Source: Mariniflexile sp. TRM1-10 (GTDB lineage: Bacteria > Bacteroidota > Bacteroidia > Flavobacteriales > Flavobacteriaceae). Taken from it: a stretch of DNA of 64,000 bases. Made by a program: the position numbers and the translations under genes. This document shows, piece by piece, positions 48,840-62,065 of this stretch. Every line of letters starts with the position of its first letter. Position 1 is the stretch's first letter. The notes beneath the pieces are model-generated. The model was not told the DNA's origin. It did no database searches and was given only the letters and a program-made list of their open reading frames with translations. The stretch spans positions 533,501 to 597,500 of the forward strand of contig NZ_CP022985.1 of assembly GCF_003425985.1 (NCBI RefSeq). The letters are read 5' to 3'.

Positions 48840-49103
48840 CTGTCTTTCTTATTTGTTTTTAATTATTAGATGGCACTCCATAATTATGCTCCTGTGTGTT
48901 AAGGTATTTTTAGCATAGATGGTTCATCTATTAATATTCCATTTTTAACTAGCTTATAAAGGTACTGCAATATACTATAATTTACAATTTGCATATTAAA
49001 ATAGGTTTATATAACCAATAAATCGTGTAAGCTGTATCAGTTAAATGATTCAAAAAGGCTAAAATTATTATTACTTTAAAGTATTTAGACTTTAATTGAT
49101 ATT
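48840..49103. other. Gene-free divergent region between trkA and ubiE
   Basis: 264 bp, AT-rich. It must hold the trkA promoter; none is convincing to me. It is followed by copy 1 of the 180-bp inverted-repeat element. Confidence 0.4.
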
Positions 49104-49283
49104 GAACTCATCTTTACTTTTTCTATTTCCTAAAACCTGCCTGCCGGCAGGCAGGAATGGCTAAAATTTATACATATTTAGTTACTTTTTTTATGCATAG
49201 CGATGCTATGGCTTGCAAAAAGTGCCTCATCTGTACAAATTTTATCTCATTTTCGGTTAAAAACAAAAAGTAAAGATGAGTTC
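49104..49283. repeat. 180-bp inverted-repeat element, copy 1
   Basis: Begins gaactcatctttacttttt (49104-49122) and ends with its perfect 19-bp reverse complement (49265-49283). Inside is the 20-bp palindrome cctgcctgccggcaggcagg (49136-49155) and a conserved stretch caaattttatctcattttcgg. Two more copies at 56993 and 61370 share order and length. It contains no open frame of its own. It resembles a MITE or a structured non-coding element. Confidence 0.9.
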
Positions 49284-49307
49284 ATTTTAAAGTAGAAATA
49301 AATTATG

Positions 49308-49315
49308 TAGGTTTG
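49308..49315 (+). promoter_or_regulatory. Putative -7 element of ubiE (TAGGTTTG)
   Basis: TAnnTTTG match 17 bp before the TTG start, implying a very short leader. The -33 region would fall at the end of the inverted-repeat element. Confidence 0.5.
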
Positions 49316-49331
49316 CCAAAAAAACAGAGCA

Positions 49332-50057
49332 TTGTCGAAAATTAAGCCTTACAAGAACAGCGATTTAGGAAAAAAAGAACAGGTAACTAAAATGTTTGAT
49401 AACATTTCCGGAGATTACGATGGGTTAAACCGCGTTATTTCTTTTGGAATTGATATCACATGGCGAAAAAAAGTAGTTAAACTGGTTAAAGAAAATAACC
49501 CAGACACTATCTTAGATATTGCTACCGGAACGGGCGATTTGGCTATTAATCTAGCCGAAACAAATGCTACCAAAATTGTTGGTCTAGACATTAGTAGTGG
49601 CATGCTTGAAATAGGCAAAGAAAAAATTAAAAAGAAAGCCTTAGAATCTAAAATCGATATGGTTTTGGGCGATAGCGAAAACATGCCTTTTGAAGATAAT
49701 TCGTTTGATGCCATTACCGTTGCCTTTGGTGTTCGTAATTTTGAAACACTTGAAAATGGACTAAAAGAAATTTACAGGGTACTAAAACCCAACGGGACTT
49801 TTGTTATTCTAGAAACCTCAATGCCTACTAAATTTCCTTACTTGCAAGGTTATAAATTTTATACCAAAAATATTTTGCCTTTCATCGGGAAGTTATTTTC
49901 TAAAGACAGAAGTGCTTATAAATATTTATGCGAATCGGCATCTGTTTTTCCTTATGGTGAAGATTTAAACAATATTTTACGTAAAATTGGGTTTATTAAT
50001 GTTGAAGATTTTCCGCAAACTTTTGGGGTTGCGACTATTTACAAATCGTCAAAATAA
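49332..50057 (+). CDS. ubiE: Demethylmenaquinone methyltransferase
   Basis: SAM-dependent C-methyltransferase, last step of menaquinone synthesis, 241 residues. Motifs: [23 protein letters not shown] motif [30 protein letters not shown] and AFGVRNFE. Starts with TTG at 49332 ([20 protein letters not shown]), which matches family N-termini better than the ATG 19 codons later. Followed 90 bp on by porT, likely in one operon. Confidence 0.95.
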
Positions 50058-50147
50058 AACTATGAACGAGCATGTTAAAAATTTTATCATCCAAGGGAAT
50101 GATCACTAGTGAACAGCACGTGTCCGTTAAAAAAAACATATAAACAC

Positions 50148-50876
50148 ATGAAGTATTTTTTTGCATTAATTACATGTTTACTTACCATCCAAACTTCTAA
50201 TGCACAGCTGTTTAAAAAAGAAAAGGTAAGCTATGATGCAAACTCAGGAAGAGGCTCTACCGATAACAACTTATTACGTTGGGGATACTTTCTAGGCATT
50301 AATAATTACGACTTCAACTTTGATTACAATGAAGATTTACGGGATATTTATGTAAAACGAAGCCCAGGCTTTAGTGTTGGATTAATAGGGAATTTACGCA
50401 TTAACGAGTTTTTGGATTTGCGTTTAGAACCCGGTTTGCTAATTACAACCAGAGAACTGTATTACAGTCAAACGTATTTTCAAGGTACCGCCTTTACCTC
50501 ATCCGATTTAACACGAGAAGTAAAATCCACATACATACATGTGCCTTTATTATTAAAAGTCTCAACCAAACGCATAAATAACTTCAAACCTTTTATAGTG
50601 GGTGGTTTTTCAACAGCTTTAAACTTATCGAGTAATGAGGAAAACCCAAACGATAACGCCAATGGACAATTTAGAACGACCAAGAACAACGTGTTTTACG
50701 AACTAGGTTTTGGGATCGATTTTTACTTATACAACTTTAAATTCACACCATCTATTCGCGGACTTTTTGGAATTAATGATGAACTAGTACGCGATGAAAA
50801 TCCAGACAGCCCTTGGACAAGCAACATAAACGCCATGAAAACCAGAGGAGTGTTTATTAATTTTACGTTTCAATAA
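50148..50876 (+). CDS. porT: PorT/SprT-like type IX secretion outer-membrane protein
   Basis: A 242-residue outer-membrane beta-barrel. Start chosen at 50148 where a signal peptide begins (KYFFALITCLLTIQTSNAQ). Strand-rich body with DNNLLRWGYFLGINNYDFNF and RLEPGLLITTRELYY, ending in an aromatic residue (VFINFTFQ). PorT is required for type IX secretion in Porphyromonas and flavobacteria. Lying directly after ubiE supports the call, since I recall that arrangement in related genomes. A generic porin-family barrel is the alternative. Confidence 0.75.
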   Translation: MKYFFALITCLLTIQTSNAQLFKKEKVSYDANSGRGSTDNNLLRWGYFLGINNYDFNFDYNEDLRDIYVKRSPGFSVGLIGNLRINEFLDLRLEPGLLITTRELYYSQTYFQGTAFTSSDLTREVKSTYIHVPLLLKVSTKRINNFKPFIVGGFSTALNLSSNEENPNDNANGQFRTTKNNVFYELGFGIDFYLYNFKFTPSIRGLFGINDELVRDENPDSPWTSNINAMKTRGVFINFTFQ

Positions 50877-50950
50877 AGTTGGTTGATGGTTGTTGGTTGA
50901 TGGTTGATGGTTGTTGGGTTTTGGGTTGTAGGCATTGGGTGCTAGGTATA
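50877..50950. repeat. Low-complexity repeat (ttggttgatgg type)
   Basis: About 70 bp of imperfect gttggttgatggttg words immediately after the porT stop, drifting into gggttttgggttgtaggc. No gene. Confidence 0.75.
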
Positions 50951-51037
50951 TTTATATATTAGGGACACACAACACACTCCTTTCACGTCTCACCTTTCAC
51001 GAATTCACAGGTGTTAGAAAAAACCATTTTCACTTTT

Positions 51038-51781
51038 TCAATCATTCATTGCCAATTGCCAATTGCCTCTCCTAAACTCACTCAACAAAATAGCGGTTGC
51101 GGTGGCTACATTCAAACTTTCTGTTGCTTGCAAATCCCCAAATCTTGGGATGGCTATTTTATCAGTGATCATAGCTTCCACTTCTTTTGATATACCATTA
51201 GCTTCATTACCCATAACCAAAATACCATTTTCTGGCAGTCGTTTGGCATAAACATTTTCACCTTCCATAAAAGCACCAAATATGGGCAAGTTAGTCGATT
51301 TTAGAAAATCAGCCAAATCAATATAATTAATAGCCACTCTAGCAATAGAACCCATAGTTGCTTGAACCACTTTGGGATTGAAACAATCTACCGTTTCGTT
51401 ACTGCACACCAAATCTTTCACACCAAACCAATCACAAAGTCTTATAATGGTTCCTAAATTCCCTGGATCCCTAACTGCATCAAGCGCAACAATAAGTCCT
51501 TTCTTTTCTATAGGTTGTGGTTGTGGTATTTCAAAAATTGCCAGTGCCGTATTAGGTGTTGTTAAAAAGCTAATACGTTTTAAATCGGTTTCAGAAATTA
51601 AAACTTCATTTTTGGCATCAATATTGAATGGTTCTGTCGTATATAAAGCATGAAGCACCAAATGGGATTGTAATAGCTCTTTAATTGTTTTAACGCCTTC
51701 AACAACAAAAAAACCGTGTTGCTGTCTATATTTTTTTTGCTTTAAACTCGTTATTAATTTTATTTGACTTTTAGACAACAT
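51038..51781 (-). CDS. TrmH/SpoU-family RNA 2'-O-methyltransferase
   Basis: A 247-residue SPOUT-fold enzyme that methylates ribose 2'-OH in tRNA or rRNA. Conserved motif 1 (LDAVRDPGNLGTIIRLCDWF), motif 2 (ILVMGNEANGISKEV) and motif 3 (IPRFGDLQATESLNVATATA, knotted SAM site) are all present, as is an N-terminal substrate-binding domain (FVVEGVKTIKELL). Exact RNA target unknown. Divergent from tamL. Confidence 0.93.
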   Translation of the reverse strand: MLSKSQIKLITSLKQKKYRQQHGFFVVEGVKTIKELLQSHLVLHALYTTEPFNIDAKNEVLISETDLKRISFLTTPNTALAIFEIPQPQPIEKKGLIVALDAVRDPGNLGTIIRLCDWFGVKDLVCSNETVDCFNPKVVQATMGSIARVAINYIDLADFLKSTNLPIFGAFMEGENVYAKRLPENGILVMGNEANGISKEVEAMITDKIAIPRFGDLQATESLNVATATAILLSEFRRGNWQLAMND

Positions 51782-51989
51782 AATTATTGATTATGAAAAT
51801 GAGAATAAACACATGAAATAATGTATTTTTGAGTCCGTAAAGGTCTTTTTTTACCAAATAATTTGTTAATACCTTTAACCTGAATTAATTTTAATTTGAT
51901 TTGAAATGAGTTATAAAAAACTCCATAACACAATACGAATTTCAACATTACGAATTGCATCTGACCATTTTAAAAATAGAAATTAACAG

Positions 51990-54539
51990 ATGAAACTACA
52001 ATTCCCAAAAGTAACACTTTTAGTTTTAATTACGACACACCTCTTATCCTGTGATGCAGTAAAGCGAGTTCCCGAAAATGAACATTTACTTACCGACAAT
52101 ACTGTTTTTATAAACGGTAAAAAGGATCAAACCGAATTAATAAACAATTTATTATACCAAGAACCCAATAGCAAAATACCCATTATAGGCACTCCCTTAC
52201 GGTTACACATATACAATTTAGCCCGCAATAATAGAGATTCTTTATTTGAAGCATGGTTGGATAAAAATCCGAACCGTAGAGAACGTTTAACTAAACGCCT
52301 ATCTAAAAAACAATTAGATAAATTAAAAGAATCTTCAATAGGCTTTAATAATTGGTTACGTAAAACGGGGGAAGCTCCAGTAATTGTCGATGAAGAAAAA
52401 ACAACAAAATCTACAAAAAGACTTGAGGCTTACTATATAAACAATGGATGGTTTGATGTTGAAGCAACTTACAATATTAACAAAAAAGAAAATAAACGTG
52501 CCGATATGGAATACTATGTTGAAACAGGAACACCCTATGTTTTAGATACCATATCAGAAAAAATAAAATCAGACGTTGTTAATTCTATATATCAAAAGAC
52601 CAAGAAAAACACACTAATTAAGCATAACGAACAATACCGGTCTTCAAACTTTTCACAGGAACGCGAACGTATTTCCAATGAATTACGTAACTCTGGCGTC
52701 TATCATTTCAATCAAGATTATATCACTTTTGAAATGGATACTATTGGAACCAATAAAAAAGTAAATATTGAGATCCAAATCCAAAATAGAGCGATTAGAA
52801 CACAAGATTCCGTAAAACGCGTACCGTTTGACATTTACAAAATTAAGGATGTCAATATTATAACCGATTATACTTTTGAAAACAGAGGTAAGCCTTTTCA
52901 AGATTCCATAACCTATGAAGGCTACAAGATATATGGTTATAATAAAATAAAATACCGACCCAAAGCTTTAACCGATGCCGTTTTTATTACACCAAATACT
53001 ATTTTCAAGGATAGCGACCGAACGCTAACCTACAGGCATATTAACGAATTACGCACCTTTAAATACCCAAATATTGAGTATATAGAAAACGCAAACAATA
53101 CGCTAACAGATACTATTAGGCTAACCCCCTTAAAGAAATTCAGTTTGGGTTTTAGTGCCGATGTATCGCAAAGCAATATACAAACAGTAGGTTTCTCATT
53201 AAACCCAAGCTTATTGATTAGAAATGTTTTTAGAGGTGCCGAAACCTTAGAGCTATCGGCCATTGGATCTATTGGTGCATCAAAAGAAAAAAACAATATT
53301 AACGACCCGTTTTTTGATATTAATGAAATTGGTGCCGATTTAAAATTAACCATTCCGCGATTCTTTTTTCCTTTTAATACCGAAAAAATCATCCCAAAAT
53401 ACATGTCGCCAAGTACAAGAATAAGCTTAGCGACCACCAGTCAGACCAACATCGGATTGGACAAACAAACCTTTACAGGTATTTTTAATTACAACTGGCA
53501 ACCTTCTGCCAAAGTCACTAACAGGCTCGACGTTTTTAATATTCAATATGTTAGAAATTTAAATACTCAAAATTATTTTAGAATTTATGACAACTCATTT
53601 AGCGTATTAAATCAAGTTGCAAGAGATATTAACTATATTGAAGATGATACTAGCTTAAATCTTCCAAATTCTGACAACCCAGTAAACGAAGCAGATATTT
53701 TTATAAATGATGTGCTAAGCAATAACACCTCTTTAAACCCCAATGATCCTAGTTTTAAGTCGGTTTCCAGTATTAATGAACGCAAACAACGTTTAACCGA
53801 AAACAACTTAATAATTTCGTCAAGCTTCAGCTTAACCAACGATGAGCGTACCAATTTGTTTGACGATGACTTCTCGATTTTCCGTTTTAAATTAGAATTG
53901 GCAGGCAACCTGCTTTCCACCGTATCTGACTTTATTGGTCAGAAAAAAAACGCCGATAACCGTTATGAACTTTTTAATGTAGCCTATTCACAATTTGTCA
54001 AAACCGAATTGGACTATGTAAAACATTGGAGTTTAGGCAAAAAAAACATACTAGCAGCCAGAAGTTATTTTGGCATTGCCATACCCTATGGAAATTCCAG
54101 CAATATTCCTTTTTCCAAAAGTTTTTTTGCTGGAGGTGCTAACGATAATCGTGCTTGGACCGCCTACCGCTTAGGGCCCGGAAGTTCAGAATCCACTAAC
54201 GAGTTTAACGAGGCCAATTTAAAATTAGCCTTAAGTGTTGAACAGCGCTTTAATATTTTTGGAAAACTGAATGGTGCCGTATTTGTAGATGCAGGAAATA
54301 TTTGGAACGTGCTAGACGACGTTACGGATGAAAACGCTACATTTTCAAACCTTAGCTCATTAAAAAATATTGCCGTTGGTTCAGGTTTTGGCTTACGCTA
54401 TGATTTTAGTTTTTTTATATTTCGTTTTGATATAGGTTTTAAAACTTACGACCCTTCATACCAAGACCAAAACCGTTGGTTTAACGACTATAACTTTTCT
54501 AATGCCGTGTATAATATAGGTATTAACTATCCATTTTAA
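51990..54539 (+). CDS. tamL: TamL-like lipidated Omp85 (BamA/TamA superfamily) protein
   Basis: An 849-residue outer-membrane assembly protein. The signal ends in a lipobox (THLLSCDAVK), so it is a lipoprotein, which separates TamL from TamA and BamA. POTRA-type domains occupy ~25-370, with a conserved TKSTKRLEAYYINNGWFDVEA. The C-terminal 16-strand barrel holds SFFAGGANDNRAWTAYRLGP, the Omp85 loop-6-like motif, and ends SNAVYNIGINYPF. In Bacteroidota TamL pairs with TamB for envelope assembly; tamB is not in the window. Confidence 0.87.
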   Translation: MKLQFPKVTLLVLITTHLLSCDAVKRVPENEHLLTDNTVFINGKKDQTELINNLLYQEPNSKIPIIGTPLRLHIYNLARNNRDSLFEAWLDKNPNRRERLTKRLSKKQLDKLKESSIGFNNWLRKTGEAPVIVDEEKTTKSTKRLEAYYINNGWFDVEATYNINKKENKRADMEYYVETGTPYVLDTISEKIKSDVVNSIYQKTKKNTLIKHNEQYRSSNFSQERERISNELRNSGVYHFNQDYITFEMDTIGTNKKVNIEIQIQNRAIRTQDSVKRVPFDIYKIKDVNIITDYTFENRGKPFQDSITYEGYKIYGYNKIKYRPKALTDAVFITPNTIFKDSDRTLTYRHINELRTFKYPNIEYIENANNTLTDTIRLTPLKKFSLGFSADVSQSNIQTVGFSLNPSLLIRNVFRGAETLELSAIGSIGASKEKNNINDPFFDINEIGADLKLTIPRFFFPFNTEKIIPKYMSPSTRISLATTSQTNIGLDKQTFTGIFNYNWQPSAKVTNRLDVFNIQYVRNLNTQNYFRIYDNSFSVLNQVARDINYIEDDTSLNLPNSDNPVNEADIFINDVLSNNTSLNPNDPSFKSVSSINERKQRLTENNLIISSSFSLTNDERTNLFDDDFSIFRFKLELAGNLLSTVSDFIGQKKNADNRYELFNVAYSQFVKTELDYVKHWSLGKKNILAARSYFGIAIPYGNSSNIPFSKSFFAGGANDNRAWTAYRLGPGSSESTNEFNEANLKLALSVEQRFNIFGKLNGAVFVDAGNIWNVLDDVTDENATFSNLSSLKNIAVGSGFGLRYDFSFFIFRFDIGFKTYDPSYQDQNRWFNDYNFSNAVYNIGINYPF

Positions 54540-54631
54540 TAGCTTAATCATTCTTCACAAACTATAACGTTTTAGTACTTATTTAGTATTTTCAAACCGT
54601 TAAAACACTAAAAATGTTTTAAAAATTGATT

Positions 54632-54639
54632 ACTTTTGA
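54632..54639 (+). promoter_or_regulatory. Putative -7 element of fbaA (TACTTTTG)
   Basis: TAnnTTTG match 35 bp before the ATG at 54674. It lies in the upstream frame extension and so supports the later start. Confidence 0.45.
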
Positions 54640-54673
54640 AAACTTACAAACTAAAATAAAATTTCAAATAATT

Positions 54674-55741
54674 ATGGGACATAATATAAAACCAGGCGTT
54701 GCTACAGGACGAGAAGTACAAGCCATTTTTAAACTCGCTAAAGAAAAAGGATTTGCTTTACCAGCTGTAAATGTCATTGGTTCAGATACAATTAATGGCG
54801 TATTGGAAACTGCAGCAGAACTAAATGCACCAGTAATTATTCAATTTTCAAATGGTGGTGCACAATTTAATGCTGGAAAAGGCTTAAGTAACGAAGGCCA
54901 GAAAGCAGCTATCGCAGGAGCTATCGCAGGAGCAAAACACGTACACACATTAGCAGAAGCATACGGTGTTCCTGTAATTTTACATACAGACCACTGTGCA
55001 AAAAAACTATTACCTTGGATTGATGGTTTATTGGACGCCAGTGAAAAACATTTCGCTGAAACCGGAAAATCACTTTTCAGTTCTCACATGATTGACCTTT
55101 CGGAAGAACCCATCGAAGAAAACATAGAAATATGCAAAACCTATTTAGAACGTATGAGCAAAATGGGGATGACATTAGAAATTGAATTGGGGATTACAGG
55201 TGGTGAAGAAGACGGTGTAGATAATAGTGATGTAGATGATTCTAAATTATATACACAACCAGAAGAAGTTGCCTATGCATACGAAGAATTAAGTAAAGTA
55301 AGCGACCAGTTTACTATTGCTGCAGCTTTCGGTAACGTACACGGCGTATACAAACCAGGAAACGTAAAATTAACACCAAAAATCTTGAAAAACTCTCAAG
55401 ATTATATTTCTAAAAAATACGGTGTAGGTCATAACCATATTGATTTTGTATTCCATGGTGGTTCAGGTTCTACAGTTGAAGAAATTCGTGAAGGTATTAG
55501 CTACGGTGTTATTAAAATGAATATAGATACCGATTTACAATATGCCTTTATGAGTGGTATTCGTGACTATATGAACAGTAAAAAAGATTATTTACAAGGA
55601 CAAATTGGAAACCCTGAAGGCTCTGATGTTCCTAACAAAAAATACTACGACCCACGTGTTTGGTTACGTTCGGGCGAAGTCACTTTTATTGAGCGTTTAA
55701 AAAAGGCTTTCGAAGACCTTAATAATGTAAATACACTATAA
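54674..55741 (+). CDS. fbaA: Class II fructose-1,6-bisphosphate aldolase
   Basis: Cytosolic zinc-dependent aldolase of glycolysis and gluconeogenesis, 355 residues from the ATG at 54674 (MGHNIKPGVATGREVQ). Zinc ligands in VILHTDHCAKKLLPW and the later GVGHNHIDFVFHGGSGS; the NMDTDLQYA-type region reads KMNIDTDLQYA. Length and the Asp-rich insert EEDGVDNSDVDDSKL fit the class IIA branch. A terminator follows. Confidence 0.96.
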   Translation: MGHNIKPGVATGREVQAIFKLAKEKGFALPAVNVIGSDTINGVLETAAELNAPVIIQFSNGGAQFNAGKGLSNEGQKAAIAGAIAGAKHVHTLAEAYGVPVILHTDHCAKKLLPWIDGLLDASEKHFAETGKSLFSSHMIDLSEEPIEENIEICKTYLERMSKMGMTLEIELGITGGEEDGVDNSDVDDSKLYTQPEEVAYAYEELSKVSDQFTIAAAFGNVHGVYKPGNVKLTPKILKNSQDYISKKYGVGHNHIDFVFHGGSGSTVEEIREGISYGVIKMNIDTDLQYAFMSGIRDYMNSKKDYLQGQIGNPEGSDVPNKKYYDPRVWLRSGEVTFIERLKKAFEDLNNVNTL

Positions 55742-55761
55742 AATAGAGTTGTTATGTATAT

Positions 55762-55789
55762 AAAATCCTGCTTCACGCAGGATTTTTTC
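55762..55789 (+). terminator. Terminator of fbaA
   Basis: Stem aaaatcctgc / gcaggatttt around ttcac, then T-run. Starts 21 bp past the stop. Confidence 0.9.
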
Positions 55790-55974
55790 ATTTCTAAGCA
55801 ATAAAAAAATTAAAAAAATTCAATTAATAAAAACAGAATGGCTTTACTACTAAATTAAAATAAAGCCTTAATTTTGTAGTCAGGCTTTTTGCTTTATCAT
55901 TTTTGATTTTACACATAACGTGTTTGTTAAAAAAGAATCTAGCAACTATCCTTAACGAAAATACCGATGTACAA

Positions 55975-56030
55975 AATTTTTTAAATCTAAAATTGTAAAT
56001 CGTAAATCTAAAATCGTAAATCATAAATCA
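55975..56030. repeat. Short direct repeats aaatc(t/g)aaaatcgt before accD
   Basis: Imperfect head-to-tail copies of the word taaatctaaaa(t/c)gtaaatcg occupy the last ~55 bp before the accD ATG. The rest of the gap (55790-55975) is AT-rich with one weak hairpin (aaagcct / aggcttt, about 55862-55893). Confidence 0.55.
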
Positions 56031-56032
56031 CT

Positions 56033-56890
56033 ATGTCTTGGTTTAAAAGAAAAACAAAAGGAATAACAACAACAACAGAGGAAAAAAAAGACACCCCTAG
56101 GGGTCTTTGGTACAAATCTCCAACTGGAAAAATTGTCGATACAGATGAACTTGAAAAAAACTTTTATGTAAGTCCGGAAGATGGATACCACGTTCGAATA
56201 GGAAGTAAAGAATACTTCGAAATTCTTTTTGATGATAATAAATTTAAAGAGCTGGACGCTAATTTAGAATCTAAAGACCCATTAAAATTTGTTGACACTA
56301 AAAAATATCCAGACCGTTTAAAAGCTGCCCAAGAAAAAACCAAATTAAAAGACGCTATTAGAGTAGGCGTTGGCAAATCTAAAGGAAAAGACTTGGTCGT
56401 TGCTTGTATGGATTTTGCATTTATTGGTGGCTCTATGGGAAGTGTTGTTGGTGAAAAAATTGCACGTGCTGCAGATTATTCATTAAAAAACAACATTCCA
56501 CTAATGGTCATTTCTAAATCTGGTGGTGCCCGTATGATGGAGGCAGCTTTATCGCTTATGCAATTAGCAAAAACATCTGTAAAGTTAGCACAATTAGCAG
56601 ATGCTGGCATTCCATACATATCATTATGTACCGACCCAACAACTGGTGGTACTACAGCATCGTTTGCCATGTTGGGAGATATTAATATTGCAGAACCAGG
56701 TGCTTTAATTGGGTTTGCAGGCCCTCGTGTAGTAAAAGATACGACTGGCAAGGATTTACCTGAAGGTTTTCAAACCTCAGAGTTTTTATTGGAACACGGT
56801 TTCTTAGATTTTATTACACTAAGAAAAGATTTAAAAACCAAAGTAAATCAGTATTTGGATTTAATTTTAAATCAGCCTTTAAGAACATAA
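56033..56890 (+). CDS. accD: Acetyl-CoA carboxylase carboxyltransferase beta subunit
   Basis: Carboxyltransferase beta subunit, 285 residues, transferring CO2 from carboxybiotin to acetyl-CoA in the first step of fatty-acid synthesis. The crotonase core is intact: [46 protein letters not shown] and [12 protein letters not shown]. The N-terminal Cys4 zinc ribbon is absent: positions that carry CxxC pairs read SPTG (29-32) and SPED (47-50). Other flavobacterial AccD proteins, as I recall them, share this loss. accA is not in the window. Confidence 0.95.
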
Positions 56891-56992
56891 ATATTAACAC
56901 ATTACAATAAACTACCTCGTAGATTTAAAAAATTTACGAGGTAGTTTGTATAAGTAACTAAGTTGAATGGAGAATTAATGTAAAAATAGATA

Positions 56993-57170
56993 GAATTCAT
57001 CTTGACTTCTCTATTTCCTAAAACCTGCCTGCCGGCAGGCAGGAATGGCTAAAATTCGTCCATAGTTTATTTCTTTTTTATGCTTAGCTCCGCCTATGCC
57101 TTTCAAAAAGTGCATCATCCGTACAAATTTTATCTCATTTTCGGTTAAAAACAAAAATCAAGAAGAGTTC
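56993..57170. repeat. 180-bp inverted-repeat element, copy 2
   Basis: Same element as at 49104: starts gaattcatcttgacttct, ends agaagagttc, with the identical 20-bp palindrome at 57024-57043 and the same caaattttatctcattttcgg tail. Its terminal repeats differ at about four positions. It lies between accD and a convergent kinase gene. Confidence 0.87.
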
Positions 57171-57180
57171 ATAATTTTCT

Positions 57181-58278
57181 TTAACCTGCTTTCAAAAAAA
57201 TCGAAAATGTTGTACCGACATCAACTTCACTTTTTACTTTTATATACCCTCCCAACGATTCAACATGATTTTTAGTAATAAAGAGTCCTACACCTAAAGC
57301 GTCTTTATTCTTATGAAAGGTTTTGTACATTTGAAATAACGTATTGCCAAATTTATCTAAATCGATTCCCAAACCATTATCTTCTATATGGAATATAACA
57401 TATCCTTCTTGAATCTCACTGGATAGTTTAATAATGGTATCTCTTTTATCAGAACGGTATTTAACAGCATTCGTTAAAAAATTTAAAATAATACTATCCA
57501 AATACGCTGGGACAGCTTTAACATTATGATTCTCATTAACATCATTCTTAATTGTACAATGAATGTTTTTTGCCAATGCACTCACGTTATATATAGATTG
57601 ATTAACATAATCATATAAATTAAGTACCTCAATATTACTTTCATCAATAGCTTTTATTTTGGCCACTTCTGCTAAATGCAAAACCGTTTGGTTTAAATTT
57701 ATTACAGAACCTTTTAAAAGTTCAAAATTCTCATCTTCTGTTAGTTCATGCGATTCTTCTTCAAGAAACGTCACTAAAGTCATTAAGTTTGAAACATGGG
57801 TTCGTAAGTTATGGGTAATAATCTCTGCAAAGCTAGATAACCTACTATTTTGTTCCCTTGCTACATCTAGCATGATTTCTAATTGATTTCTGTCCGCTTT
57901 CCTTTTGGAAATATCATCAATTTGAGATATAATGTATAACGGTTCACCTTTAACATTCCTAACTATTGAGGCAGATAGCATGGCCCAAACTATGCTTCCG
58001 TCTTTATGAAAATAGCGCTTTTCCATTTGATAGTTTTCAGCCTCACCTTGAAGTAGTGATTCCACGCAACTTAAATTGGCATCTAAATCATCTTTATGGG
58101 TAATGTCTGTAAACGACATGTTATAAAGTTCCTCTTCAAAATACCCTAAAAAATTAGTAACACTTTTATTAACCTTTATCCATCGACCATCGAGACTCAA
58201 AATGGCTATTCCACCTCTAGCATAATTGAAAATATTTTCAAATAGTTTGTCTTTTACCAGACTTAGGTTTTTAGGCAT
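57181..58278 (-). CDS. Soluble PAS sensor histidine kinase
   Basis: A 365-residue kinase without membrane helices. An N-terminal PAS domain (~12-125; GGIAILSLDGRWIKVN and ISQIDDISKRK) feeds a HisKA-like domain with His156 in FAEIITHNLRTHVSNL and a HATPase with ILNFLTNAVKYRSD, DNGLGIDLDKFG and LGVGLFITKNHVE. No regulator is adjacent, so its partner is unknown. It lies between two inverted-repeat elements. Confidence 0.9.
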   Translation of the reverse strand: MPKNLSLVKDKLFENIFNYARGGIAILSLDGRWIKVNKSVTNFLGYFEEELYNMSFTDITHKDDLDANLSCVESLLQGEAENYQMEKRYFHKDGSIVWAMLSASIVRNVKGEPLYIISQIDDISKRKADRNQLEIMLDVAREQNSRLSSFAEIITHNLRTHVSNLMTLVTFLEEESHELTEDENFELLKGSVINLNQTVLHLAEVAKIKAIDESNIEVLNLYDYVNQSIYNVSALAKNIHCTIKNDVNENHNVKAVPAYLDSIILNFLTNAVKYRSDKRDTIIKLSSEIQEGYVIFHIEDNGLGIDLDKFGNTLFQMYKTFHKNKDALGVGLFITKNHVESLGGYIKVKSEVDVGTTFSIFLKAG

Positions 58279-58309
58279 CGTTATGAGGGAATAAAAAAAT
58301 GGACTCTTA

Positions 58310-58471
58310 AGATACTGTTTAAGTTTTATCCTTTGGCTCTTTTATGTGCCTTTTTCCGCCATACTTCAGCTATTTTTCGGTCCATAGCTATGGCTATGAA
58401 TCTCAAAATACCTTCGTCTAACAAAAAAATACCCTATAAAACATTCCAAAAACAAAATTTAAACAGTATCT
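58310..58471. repeat. 162-bp inverted-repeat element, different termini
   Basis: Starts agatactgtttaagtttt (58310-58327) and ends aaaatttaaacagtatct (58454-58471), arms complementary at all but one position. The interior (ccatagctatggctatgaatctcaaaatacc) is reminiscent of gcatagcgatgctatggcttgcaaaaag in the 180-bp family. No open frame. Confidence 0.75.
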
Positions 58472-58547
58472 AAATATAGTGATTTTTTTCGAAAATATTA
58501 CTTTAAAAAAGAATTGCTACTTGTTATTATAAAATTAATTTATTCAC

Positions 58548-58555
58548 TATATTTG
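58548..58555 (+). promoter_or_regulatory. Putative -7 element of rpsO (TATATTTG)
   Basis: Perfect TAnnTTTG, 54 bp before the ATG at 58610; the frame extension upstream is therefore not coding. Confidence 0.6.
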
Positions 58556-58560
58556 CCGCT

Positions 58561-58577
58561 CGAAAGAAAGGCTTTCG
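58561..58577 (+). promoter_or_regulatory. Leader hairpin of rpsO (cgaaag-aaagg-ctttcg)
   Basis: 6-bp perfect stem with a 5-base loop, right at the start of the predicted rpsO mRNA. S15 binds its own leader in several bacteria, so this may be an autoregulatory site; that is inference. Confidence 0.4.
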
Positions 58578-58609
58578 TGTACATAAAAATTATTTACAAC
58601 AATATTAGC

Positions 58610-58879
58610 ATGTATTTAGATCAAAAAGAAAAAGAAGCCATCTTTACAAAACACGGTAAAGATGCAAAAGACACAGGTTCTGCAGAAGGACAAATTGCGT
58701 TATTCACTTACAGAATCAATCACTTAACTGAACACTTAAAAAAGAATCGTAAAGATTTTAACACCGAGCGTTCATTAGTAAAATTAGTAGGTAAAAGAAG
58801 AAGCTTACTAGATTACTTAACTAAGAAAGATATCTTAAGATATCGCGCGATAGTAAAAGAATTAGGATTAAGAAAATAA
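58610..58879 (+). CDS. rpsO: 30S ribosomal protein S15
   Basis: Binds 16S rRNA central domain, 89 residues, the standard length, from the ATG at 58610 (MYLDQKEKEAIFTKHGKDAK). Core motifs: TGSAEGQIALFTYRINHLTEHL and GKRRSLLDYL. Followed by a strong terminator and pnp, the classical rpsO-pnp order. Confidence 0.97.
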   Translation: MYLDQKEKEAIFTKHGKDAKDTGSAEGQIALFTYRINHLTEHLKKNRKDFNTERSLVKLVGKRRSLLDYLTKKDILRYRAIVKELGLRK

Positions 58880-58880
58880 A

Positions 58881-58909
58881 AAAAAGAGGCTTTTTCAGCC
58901 TCTTTTTTG
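58881..58909 (+). terminator. Terminator between rpsO and pnp
   Basis: Stem aaaaagaggct / agcctcttttt around ttttc, then T. Starts 2 bp after the stop. Confidence 0.9.
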
Positions 58910-59035
58910 TTTTAAATATAACTCTGCGTAGAGTATAAACCCGTATTGAAGAAGCTTATTATAGTTTTTCATTGGTCACACAACAACTACACACAACAAC
59001 ACAACGACCATTGTTTAATTAGAATTAAAAAATTT

Positions 59036-61306
59036 ATGATTCCAAAAGTTTTTAGAGAGGTCATTGACCTTGGTGATGGACGTACAATTTCCATCGAAAC
59101 CGGAAAATTAGCAAAACAGGCGCACGGTTCTGTTGTTGTGCAATCTGGAAAATGTATGCTTTTGTGTACAGTTGTTTCCAACTACCAACAAAGTGATGTT
59201 GACTTTTTACCGTTAACGGTAGATTACAGAGAAAAATTTGCTGCTTCTGGACGTTATCCAGGAGGTTTCTTTAAAAGAGAAGCAAGACCCAGTGATGGCG
59301 AAGTATTAACAATGCGTTTAGTAGACCGTGTTTTACGTCCGTTATTCCCAAAAGATTACCATGCTGAAACCCAATTAATGATTCAGTTAATGTCTCATGA
59401 TGAGGATGTGATGCCAGACGCTATGGCTGGATTAGCAGCTTCTGCAGCGATTCAATTATCTGACATTCCTTTTGAAACACCAATTTCTGAAGTTAGAGTA
59501 GGCCGTGTAGATGGTCAATTTATCATCAATCCAACAAGAGCACAATTAGCAGTTTCCGATATCGATATGGTTATTGGAGCATCCGCAGATTCTGTGATGA
59601 TGGTTGAAGGTGAGATGAGTGAGATTTCTGAAGAAGAAATGGTTGAAGCCATTAAGTTTGCACACGAAGCCATTAAAGTACAATGTACTGCTCAAGTAAA
59701 ATTAGCGGAAGCCTTTGGTAAAAAAGAAACTCGTGAATACGAACCAGAACGTGAAGATGAAGCATTAGCTAAAAAGGTAGAAGCTTTAACTTACGATAAA
59801 GTATATGCCGTAGCAAGAGCTGCATCGGCAAAACATGAGCGCAGTGCTGCTTTTGAAGCTATTAAAGAAGAAGTAAAAGCAACATTTACCGAAGAAGAAT
59901 TGGCTGATTATGGAGGCATGGTTTCTAAATACTTCTATAAAGCTGAGAAAAAAGCGGTTAGAGATTTAACCTTGAATGAAGGCTTACGTTTAGATGGACG
60001 TAAAACAACAGACATCAGACCTATTTGGTGTGAAATCGATTATTTACCATCTACACATGGTTCATCAATCTTTACCCGTGGGGAAACTCAAGCCTTGGCA
60101 ACAGTTACTTTAGGAACTTCAAGAGAAGCCAATCAAATAGATATGCCATCGTTTGAAGGAGAAGAGCGTTTCTATTTACACTATAACTTCCCTCCTTTTT
60201 CAACTGGTGAAGCGCGTCCAATAAGAGGAACGTCTCGTCGTGAAGTAGGTCATGGAAATTTAGCACAACGTGCCTTAAAAGGTATGGTACCTGCAGATTG
60301 TCCGTATACCGTAAGAATCGTGTCTGAAGTATTAGAATCAAACGGTTCGTCTTCTATGGCTACTGTTTGTGCTGGTACAATGGCATTAATGGATGCAGGC
60401 GTTCAAATTAAAAAACCAGTTTCAGGTATTGCCATGGGATTAATCTCTGATGCTGAAACAGGAAAATACGCCGTATTATCTGATATTTTAGGTGATGAAG
60501 ACCACTTAGGAGATATGGACTTTAAAGTAACCGGTACTGCCGATGGTATTACTGCTTGCCAAATGGACATAAAAGTTAAAGGTCTTTCTTATGAAATTTT
60601 AGTAAATGCTCTTAAACAAGCACAAGCTGGACGTTTACATATTTTGGGCAAACTTACTGAAACCATTGCACAACCAAATGCAGATGTAAAAGCACATGCT
60701 CCTAAAATGATTACAAGAGTGATTCCTAATGCGTTTATTGGTGCCTTAATTGGTCCTGGTGGCAAAGTGATTCAAGAATTACAAAAAGCGACTAAAACAA
60801 CCATCGTTATTAACGAGGATCCGATTACCGAAGAAGGTATTGTTGAAATTTTAGGAACCAATCAAGATGGTATTGATGCGGTTTTAGCTAAAATAGACTC
60901 GTTAATGTTTAAACCGGAAGTTGGTGGCACTTACGAAGTAAGAGTCATTAAAATGCTGGATTTTGGAGCTGTTGTAGAATATACGGAAGCACCAGGAAAC
61001 GAGGTGTTATTACACGTAAGCGAACTAGCTTGGGAACGTACCGAAAATGTAACCGATGTGGTTAATATGGGCGATGTTTTCAATGTGAAGTATTTTGGTG
61101 TAGATCCAAAAACCCGTAAAGAAAAAGTATCCCGTAAAGCATTATTGGAAAAACCAGAAGGTTATGTAGCAAGACCACCAAGAGATAACAACGACCGTGG
61201 TGGACGTGATAACAGAGGTGGAAGTCGTGATAATCGCGGACGTGATAATCGTAGAGATGATCGTCGTGACGATAGAAGACCTAGAGAAGACAGAAAAGAC
61301 GACTAA
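59036..61306 (+). CDS. pnp: Polynucleotide phosphorylase
   Basis: 3'-5' exoribonuclease and RNA-degradosome component, 756 residues from the ATG at 59036 ([20 protein letters not shown]); earlier frame has no support. Two RNase PH domains (~10-145 and ~320-545, the second with PPFSTGEA and [15 protein letters not shown]), a KH domain ([12 protein letters not shown]) and an S1 domain ([20 protein letters not shown]). The C-terminus is an Arg/Gly/Asp-rich tail (from ~725) that probably contacts RNA. The leader holds a CA-rich stretch bounded by ggtc/gacc. Terminator follows. Confidence 0.97.
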
Positions 61307-61328
61307 GTTTTTATAATCTTATAAATTT

Positions 61329-61363
61329 AAAACCTCACAAGATATTTTTTTGTGAGGTTTTTT
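61329..61363 (+). terminator. Terminator of pnp
   Basis: Stem aaaacctcacaa / ttgtgaggtttt with T-run. Confidence 0.9.
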
Positions 61364-61369
61364 AATTTA

Positions 61370-61549
61370 GAACTCATCTTGACTTTTTCTATTTCCTAAA
61401 ACCTGCCTGCCGGCAGGCAGGAAGGGCTAAAATCCGTCCATATTTTGTTTCTTTTTTTATGCTTAGCTCTACTATGCCTTTCAAAAAGCGTCTCATCTGC
61501 ACAGATTTTATCTCATTTTAGGTTAAACATAAAAAATAAAGATGAGTTC
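61370..61549. repeat. 180-bp inverted-repeat element, copy 3
   Basis: Starts gaactcatcttgacttttt, ends aataaagatgagttc, with the 20-bp palindrome at 61402-61421. It abuts the stop codon of the next minus-strand gene exactly, so it may serve as its 3' UTR. Confidence 0.9.
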
Positions 61550-62065
61550 TTACTTAAACCTTTGCTCGCCTATTGTTTGCTGAAATAGACTCCAATTCAC
61601 ATCACTAGCATTAATAATAAAAGTTTCCGATTTTTTAAAAAAAGAAGTTATCCCGCCTACCCCTCCACCAACAAAGGCACCAGAAAGTCCTCCTATTAAA
61701 CCGCCTTCAGCTGGTGTGTATGAAAAAACCCAATCATTTGGGTCTGAAGAAGAAGCTATTAAAACAGCTCCTAGAGCAGCCCCTGTTGCAGCACCAATAA
61801 GCACATTATTACCTGCTGCCCGTTTGGTTTTTATAAAACCAATTTCTCGTAAACTTATTTTCTCTTGTTTGCTACTCCCTTTTAGTTCCAGAAGTGAATC
61901 ATTAATAAAAATTAGCGACCCCTTATTTATTTGCTTGCCTTCCAAATCATATACTCTAAGGTATATATTGCTTTTTTTTACTTCACTTTGAGCATAAGTG
62001 CCTGTACTAAATACCAAAACTATAGCCAAAGCCATTAGTCTGATTTGCTTTTTTAGTGTCTTCAT
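61550..62065 (-). CDS. Hypothetical exported protein with glycine-rich helices
   Basis: 171 residues, signal peptide (IRLMALAIVLVFSTGTYAQ), a beta-rich part resembling an SH3-like module (GSLIFINDSLLELKG...ISLREIGFIKTKR), then two glycine-zipper-like hydrophobic segments (IGAATGAALGAVLIA and GLIGGLSGAFVGGGVGG) that could insert in or span a membrane. No named family. In the same orientation as the next gene, 39 bp away. Confidence 0.75.
   Translation of the reverse strand: MKTLKKQIRLMALAIVLVFSTGTYAQSEVKKSNIYLRVYDLEGKQINKGSLIFINDSLLELKGSSKQEKISLREIGFIKTKRAAGNNVLIGAATGAALGAVLIASSSDPNDWVFSYTPAEGGLIGGLSGAFVGGGVGGITSFFKKSETFIINASDVNWSLFQQTIGEQRFK

Follow-up and report, generated by a model that had tools for sequence, protein, structure and literature searches.

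Several families of hairpin-forming miniature inverted-repeat transposable elements (MITEs) are known from other bacteria, namely ERIC, YPAL, bcr1, RUP and Correia/NEMIS. Shorter palindromic units are also known: the PstI palindromes of Neurospora mitochondrial DNA are short and GC-rich, Rickettsia palindromic elements are inserts tolerated inside genes, and REP/RAYT elements have a conserved tetranucleotide beside an imperfect hairpin, with a RAYT gene nearby. Within the Bacteroidota, the MITE BrickBuilt of Porphyromonas gingivalis has 12-bp IS5-like ends, internal 23-nt tandem repeats and target duplications of differing length, with 19 copies in ATCC 33277 (PMC4596501). Here, we analysed a stretch of 64,000 nt from Mariniflexile sp. 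TRM1-10 (contig NZ_CP022985.1, positions 533,501 to 597,500; hereafter, the window), in which a repeat of approximately 180 bp occurs three times. We conclude, with a probability of roughly 0.88, that all three belong to one family of non-autonomous DNA transposons (MITEs) in the Flavobacteriaceae, the ground form of which is 160 bp long, and that the window copies contain an exact insertion of a 20-bp palindrome. The assignment is based on the short noncoding sequence, the terminal inverted repeats, the 3-bp target duplication, the dispersed copies and an empty site.

The three repeats of the window

The three copies were aligned from end to end, with the similarity ending at the borders listed below, in agreement with the preliminary description of this DNA, which had reported one family of nearly equal length (178–180 bp) at these positions. 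The ends are 19-bp inverted repeats, GAACTCATCTTGACTTTTT, which are perfect in copy 1, as had been described, and have a few mismatches in copies 2 and 3. The internal 20-bp palindrome is the same in all three copies, again as described. Two features go beyond that description, namely the 3-bp target duplications (ATT/ATT, ATA/ATA and TTA/TTA) and the nature of the palindrome as a separable insert. The features are as follows, with no strand assigned unless one is given.

49101–49103: target duplication ATT, 3 bp, left of copy 1 (a single ATT in the empty site of congeners G002, G003 and G005)
49104–49283: MITE copy 1 (180-bp form), between divergent trkA (minus strand) and menG/ubiE (plus strand)
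49104–49122, plus strand: left terminal inverted repeat (19 bp) of copy 1
49136–49155: 20-bp GC palindrome inserted in copy 1, lacking in 160-bp copies
49265–49283, minus strand: right terminal inverted repeat (19 bp) of copy 1, complementary to the left one without mismatch
49284–49286: target duplication ATT, 3 bp, right of copy 1
56990–56992: target duplication ATA, 3 bp, left of copy 2
56993–57170: MITE copy 2 (178 bp), between convergent accD (plus strand) and a PAS sensor kinase gene (minus strand)
57024–57043: 20-bp GC palindrome inserted in copy 2
57171–57173: target duplication ATA, 3 bp, right of copy 2
61367–61369: target duplication TTA, 3 bp, left of copy 3
61370–61549: MITE copy 3 (180 bp), between convergent pnp (plus strand) and a 171-aa ORF (minus strand)
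61402–61421: 20-bp GC palindrome inserted in copy 3
61550–61552: target duplication TTA, 3 bp, right of copy 3, doubling as the stop codon (TAA, minus strand) of the open reading frame (ORF) at 61550–62065

The window contains seven matches to the end motif (up to 3 mismatches), six of which are the element ends; 1.62 were expected, and 100 shuffles gave at most five. The neighbouring genes were identified by NCBIfam as encoding TrkA and UbiE/MenG at copy 1, AccD and a PAS sensor kinase at copy 2, and PNPase at copy 3, which confirmed the intergenic siting, once in a divergent and twice in a convergent arrangement, that had been proposed; the 171-aa protein next to copy 3 had no NCBIfam match at E 1e-10. 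The claimed lack of coding capacity was also borne out: only ORFs of 22–38 aa overlap copy 1, and no ORF of at least 90 aa, the lower limit of the listing, lies within copies 2 and 3.

Copy number, forms and distribution

The preliminary description had predicted a high genome copy number and proposed a search of the genome with the consensus. When the 4.86-Mb genome was searched with a 180-bp copy, at least 47 matches were obtained, at least 26 of them near full length, which bears out the prediction; 40 of 130 candidates were scored, so that these counts are lower bounds, and some of the 47 are both strands of one copy. The 16-base end motif (up to 2 mismatches) occurred at 66 + 75 sites in the genome, compared with 4 + 4 for the reversed control. 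Approximately 100 of these places were listed, and 30 copies and 40 more stretches around ends or palindromes were examined; solo ends were also present.

From the loci fetched, we collected 159 distinct end-to-end elements of 40–240 bp with up to 4 mismatches per end; within these limits the sizes ranged from 48 to 217 bp, and 93 of the 159 were 158–162 bp long, comprising form A and part of form B. Form A exists in versions of 160 and 180 bp, the former being the ground form, and form B, of 159–162 and 214–217 bp, has the same ends and a different interior. Mini forms of 48–64 bp consist of little beyond the two ends (L035, L037, L048, L033, L051, L036, L049 and L050). The 19-bp ends are thus common to form A, form B and the mini forms.

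Several variants were observed among these loci. Solo ends lie directly after or over gene stop codons, as read by eye (for example, L039, L090, L061 and L099). Two Aquimarina genomes carry 57-bp forms (L184 and L251) with nearly the same interior at different sites, and therefore so short a form may itself be mobile. In the own genome (L065, 1105–1473) and in Flavivirga sp. 57AJ16 (L230, 1781–2084), the form-A hairpin is interrupted close to its apex, at roughly the same position in both, by another hairpin element (ends CAATGT..ATTGAG). One uncultured Aquimarina isolate carries at two sites (L180, 4373–4563; L234, 3808–3997) a variant of 190–191 bp, with a different insert of approximately 30 bp in the same arm. 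Flavivirga aquimarina has a 752-bp form (L243, 1271–2022; TCA on both sides), in which the centre is replaced by a repeated block with no ORF of 120 aa and a 16-bp palindrome occupies the usual site.

The exact 18-base end was detected in 28 of 397 genomes of the family, the own included, and its reversed control in none. A scan of named genomes yielded at least 108 stretches with an element end, some of them solo ends; the 80 stretches listed came from Aquimarina, Snuella, Flavivirga, Lutibacter, Galbibacter, Kordia, Maribacter, Myroides, Wocania and other genera. The 160-bp element had no match in the isolate-phage and plasmid collections, and the 19-base end had none in IMG/VR. A literature search for MITEs of flavobacteria, which did not cover subscription papers and preprints, returned the Cardinium MITE and a P. 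gingivalis repeat paper but no title on a flavobacterial element.

Target duplications and empty sites

Identical 3-bp flanks were present in 104 of the 159 elements, whereas 1000 shuffled pairings averaged 17.4 and never exceeded 31; the proportions were 31/47 in the own genome and 10/17 among the 48–64 bp forms. The commonest targets were ATT (23), AAT (22) and ATA (17), in surroundings that are T-rich on the left and A-rich on the right.

An exact empty site was examined at one site, that of copy 1, where the element is absent from all five congeners (G001–G005). In G002, G003 and G005, the alignments of the two flanks overlap by exactly 3 bases at the element position, and the flanks of copy 1, when joined through a single ATT, agree with each of these genomes without mismatch over the same 43 bp. 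In G001 and G004, the junction is substituted, and exact stretches of 20 bp (G001) and 43 bp (G004) reach to 2 bases left of the junction. Copies 2 and 3 likewise have no counterpart in any of the congeners compared, of which there were four for copy 2 and five for copy 3. The copy 1 empty site and these absences indicate that the element was inserted. Within the genus, as represented by the five congeners, the element hardly occurs outside this species, the exception being one 75% copy elsewhere in G002. The preliminary description had held that mobility should be given up if there were no further copies and relatives all carried the element at identical places without empty sites; we found many copies, and an empty site in three of five congeners. 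Its proposal of a MITE mobilised by an unseen transposase stands with respect to the MITE and its mobility, given the copies and the exact empty site with a single ATT; no transposase was found between the matching ends examined.

The hairpin and its possible role in RNA

One 160-bp copy folded as DNA at −31.6 kcal/mol (z −8.46), and the fold was strong on both strands; the element as a whole is an imperfect hairpin. For the analysis of covariation, the hairpin was folded from the consensus of 60 form-A copies (the 62 best-scoring of 95, minus L267 and L287), over which 92.8% of cells were paired. Seventeen pairs showed pair-preserving change on both sides, with 76 such cells compared with 23.6 after shuffling (0/500) and up to 20 in slid controls, counts that are inflated by the relatedness of the copies. 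The double changes may reflect selection on the hairpin or arm-to-arm conversion within the palindromic element.

These properties raise the alternative, also put forward in the preliminary description, of a structured RNA or a transcription terminator or regulatory module, the hairpin being selected for a role in the transcripts of the neighbouring genes. The strong fold on both strands, the double changes in the inner helices, and the location on or close to stop codons seen at copy 3 and, by eye, at several other sites agree with such a role. However, the 3-bp target duplications, an exact empty site and the patchy distribution speak against it, and the double changes could also come from the conversion mentioned above. 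All 47 elements counted in the own genome are intergenic, with at most 50 bases of overlap with called ORFs, and all gene orientations occur among them (24 tandem, 13 divergent, 7 convergent and 3 unclassified, with a simple ORF caller). No terminator-like site was found in the three window copies (nine such sites in the region, compared with 8.4 in shuffles), and pnp is followed by a terminator-like hairpin of its own, immediately upstream of copy 3. Given the lack of terminator-like sites in the three copies, a terminator role is unlikely. At gathering scores, no Rfam family matched the element, the sole match in the window being the S15 leader. We therefore consider an RNA or terminator module improbable as the primary nature of the repeat.

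The 20-bp palindrome as a separable insert

The 160-bp copies read CCTAAAAAATGG where the 180-bp copies have the 20 bp between CCTAAAA and AATGG, that is, an exact insertion without duplication. Likewise, the window copies correspond to the ground form plus exactly the 20 bp CCTGCCTGCCGGCAGGCAGG between CCTAAAA and AATGGC. Among the 16 exact palindromes of the own genome, 14 occupy this usual site within the element, either in a full copy or in a remnant (the remnant at 2292387 being counted on its element match only). The other two are found elsewhere: at L028, the same 20 bp is in the opposite arm, between CGAA and AATGAG, compared with CGAAAATGAG, and at L068 it splits another repeat family, through which the paralogue L345 reads. 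That family (L068, 1040–1200; L345) is a third repeat family of the own genome, with dozens of partial matches. In Galbibacter (L225), the 20 bp is in a form-B element, and on an IMG/VR contig (L310) it is inside a tRNA-Met gene, for which ARAGORN predicts a tRNA both with (92 nt) and without (72 nt) the palindrome.

In a tree of 82 form-A copies, 17 carried the palindrome: 16 of the 26 from the own genome and 1 of the 56 from elsewhere (Flavivirga aquimarina). The trait required 11 changes, at least four of them forced by well-supported branches (the bootstrap had not settled), compared with 15.7 for shuffled labels, which shows that it is clustered on the tree. These changes may be gains, losses or exchanges between copies. 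Simple slippage between the A runs would not be expected to restore the six A of the 160-bp form, and exchange between copies is a possible route.

These data bear on the alternative that the palindrome is an integral part of the MITE that was deleted in some copies. Such a history would account for its single site in 15 of the 16 own-genome carriers in the tree, and for the 14 of 16 exact palindromes at that site in element copies or remnants. It is nevertheless quite improbable given the near-absence of the palindrome from form-A copies of other genomes, the cases found within the opposite arm, the other repeat family, the B-type Galbibacter element and the tRNA-Met gene, and its presence in 27 of 395 Bacteroidota genomes, the own included. 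The reversed control of that search was 0 in all genomes; among the relatives, 9 of 99 genomes, the own included, contained the palindrome.

In IMG/VR, 33 stretches contained the palindrome, compared with 0, 0 and 0 for three control palindromes of the same composition. Isolate phages gave four weak matches, each to only part of the 20 bp. At E 0.3, a threshold at which an exact 20-base match would be expected to appear, plasmids gave no match, and a further search of them gave 115 weak matches, of which the best 40 were examined. The many environmental assemblies with the palindrome, together with the lack of an exact copy in the plasmid and isolate-phage collections, might point to an artefact of sequencing, adapters or assembly. 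This is very improbable in view of the 16 copies in a single-contig genome of 4.86 Mb, the diverged variants of 16 and 24 bp and the point mutants, and the presence of the palindrome in isolates such as Flavivirga aquimarina and Galbibacter.

We analysed 77 contexts of the palindrome, including a few sites in the MITE family itself (L010, L028, L225 and L243). An A directly before or a T directly after the insert was found in 58 contexts, compared with 24–43 at offsets of 1–30, and exact duplications beside the insert were nearly absent (none of 4, 5 or 6 nt; two of 3 nt, two of 7 nt and one of 8 nt). The 20 bp thus has a preferred target, with A in front of the insert, and shows no regular duplication of the target. 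There was no preference for predicted loops in 76 contexts, the junction being unpaired at 0.496 against a mean of 0.486 for DNA and at 0.418 against 0.446 for RNA. An intact predicted tRNA spanning the palindrome was found in 1 of 50 contexts (L310) and in 0 of 27 further contexts. Other tRNA-like contexts noticed by eye (L289, L317, L322 and L326) were not predicted as intact tRNAs spanning the site.

The palindrome looks like a separate insert, which is also exactly inserted in unrelated DNA. Beyond this, we tentatively suggest, at somewhat under even odds, that bacteria and phages harbour CCTGCCTGCCGGCAGGCAGG as a mobile DNA unit in its own right, which inserts exactly, without duplication and preferably after A, by an undescribed mechanism; its targets would then be MITEs, other repeats and a tRNA gene across the Bacteroidota and environmental viral contigs. 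Such a unit would, to our knowledge, possibly be the smallest independent mobile one. In the literature, outside subscription papers and preprints, the 12-base core CCTGCCGGCAGG was not found, and CTGCCGGCAG with palindrom gave only unrelated matches.

Search for the mobilising transposase

Movement by a Y1 transposase (RAYT) in the form of single-stranded hairpin DNA, as for REP-like or IS200/IS605-type elements, would suit a hairpin over the whole length but is scarcely credible, since Y1 transposition leaves no target duplication, whereas the duplication was seen in 104/159 elements and the ends are true inverted repeats.

For an autonomous partner of the MITE, we scanned 241 partly overlapping loci (L001–L103 and L150–L287) for end pairs 0.5–4 kb apart with up to 5 mismatches at each end and up to 2 at one of them, and ORFs of at least 120 aa were compared with Pfam. 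In total, 170 such intervals were obtained, of which eight distinct ones had identical 3-bp flanks. Seven of the eight contained ten ORFs, assigned to NDH-2, two thioredoxin-like proteins, a Pvc16-like protein, a HAD hydrolase, LytTR, a 2OG-Fe(II) oxygenase and a metallopeptidase, with one weak lipocalin-like match and one ORF without any Pfam match; the eighth, L243, contained no ORF of this length. In one candidate, the 2077-bp interval of L045 with ATT on both sides, a complete 161-bp copy and a solo end enclose the NDH-2 gene, and the ATT was read as chance.

Several of our results weigh against the assignment as a MITE. No autonomous partner was found, none of the ten ORFs being a transposase by Pfam in a search that was not exhaustive. 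In the own genome, the PF01609 (three) and PF00665 (two) transposases, the two families searched, comprised IS4-like, Tn5-like and IS3-like elements and had other ends or no matching pair. An identical 3-bp flank is lacking in 55 of the 159 elements, and copies 2 and 3 have no exact empty site, the congener flanks being too diverged. Finally, the structure used in the double-change count had been folded from the consensus itself, and RNAalifold gave no consensus structure. As far as we know, the autonomous partner is also unknown for several accepted bacterial MITEs.

With the repeat taken as a MITE, a DDE-type transposase encoded elsewhere would bind the ends and move the element by cut-and-paste or copy-paste; the insertion duplicates 3 bp of an A/T-rich target. 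The palindrome CCTGCCTGCCGGCAGGCAGG may have entered an ancestral element, spread with it, and then been lost, re-gained or exchanged between copies several times.

Other elements in the window

A second 160-bp repeat is present at 58311–58470, with ends GATACTGTTTAA and TTTAAACAGTATC and TAA on both sides. It has 15 further near-full matches in the own genome; L145 is also flanked by TAA/TAA, and the flanks of L146 and L147 do not match. Its ends resemble the IS5-type ends tabulated in PMC4596501, and it is probably another MITE. An S15-Flavobacteria ribosomal protein leader was detected by Rfam at 58548–58612 (71.8 bits). The ORF called from 58514 contains this leader, and the start of the S15 gene is therefore probably farther downstream.

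Comparison with known systems

The element and the palindrome raise separate questions. The near-constant length and ends over many genera, with no visible parent, raise the question of which transposase moves the element and what fixes its size, and the 48–64 bp forms test the minimum size of a transposon. The palindrome matters more than the MITE: if it moves by itself, there is an insertion process without a known enzyme, the product of which is predictable to the base. We know of no bacterial element under which its wide, exact and duplication-free occurrence could be filed. Rickettsia palindromic elements are longer, have another sequence and are restricted to one genus, and against the conserved tetranucleotide of REP/RAYT elements, the flanks of the palindrome show only the preference for A before the insert. 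Yeast mitochondrial GC clusters (PMC4478555) are likewise short GC-rich palindromes of sporadic occurrence, with evidence that they spread within a genome and between species; unlike the palindrome, they are mitochondrial, GC42 is 42 nt long, and putative target duplications are reported for them, compared with 20 bp and none detected here. The palindrome works like these clusters, except for their target duplication.

ERIC, YPAL, bcr1, RUP and Correia/NEMIS share with the element a size of approximately 100–170 bp, an imperfect palindrome or inverted ends, intergenic siting, lack of coding capacity and many copies. They differ in the end sequence and in the target duplication, which is TA or 5 bp in those families and 3 bp and A/T-rich here; the Flavobacteriaceae host and the separable 20-bp palindrome insert also set the present element apart. 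The IS982-derived MITE of Cardinium is also a Bacteroidota MITE spread in one genome; its parental IS is known and intact (PMC9769881), in contrast to the present element, for which no parent was found. BrickBuilt (PMC4596501) shares several general features, being a Bacteroidota MITE with inverted ends, intergenic siting, long stem loops, a comparison of filled and empty sites, and no Rfam match. Its ends differ, those of the present element being GAACTCATCTTGACTTTTT and not IS5-like (GAGAC..), in a by-eye comparison with the table of that paper. The element is a new MITE family of a known kind, with an unusual constancy of length and ends.

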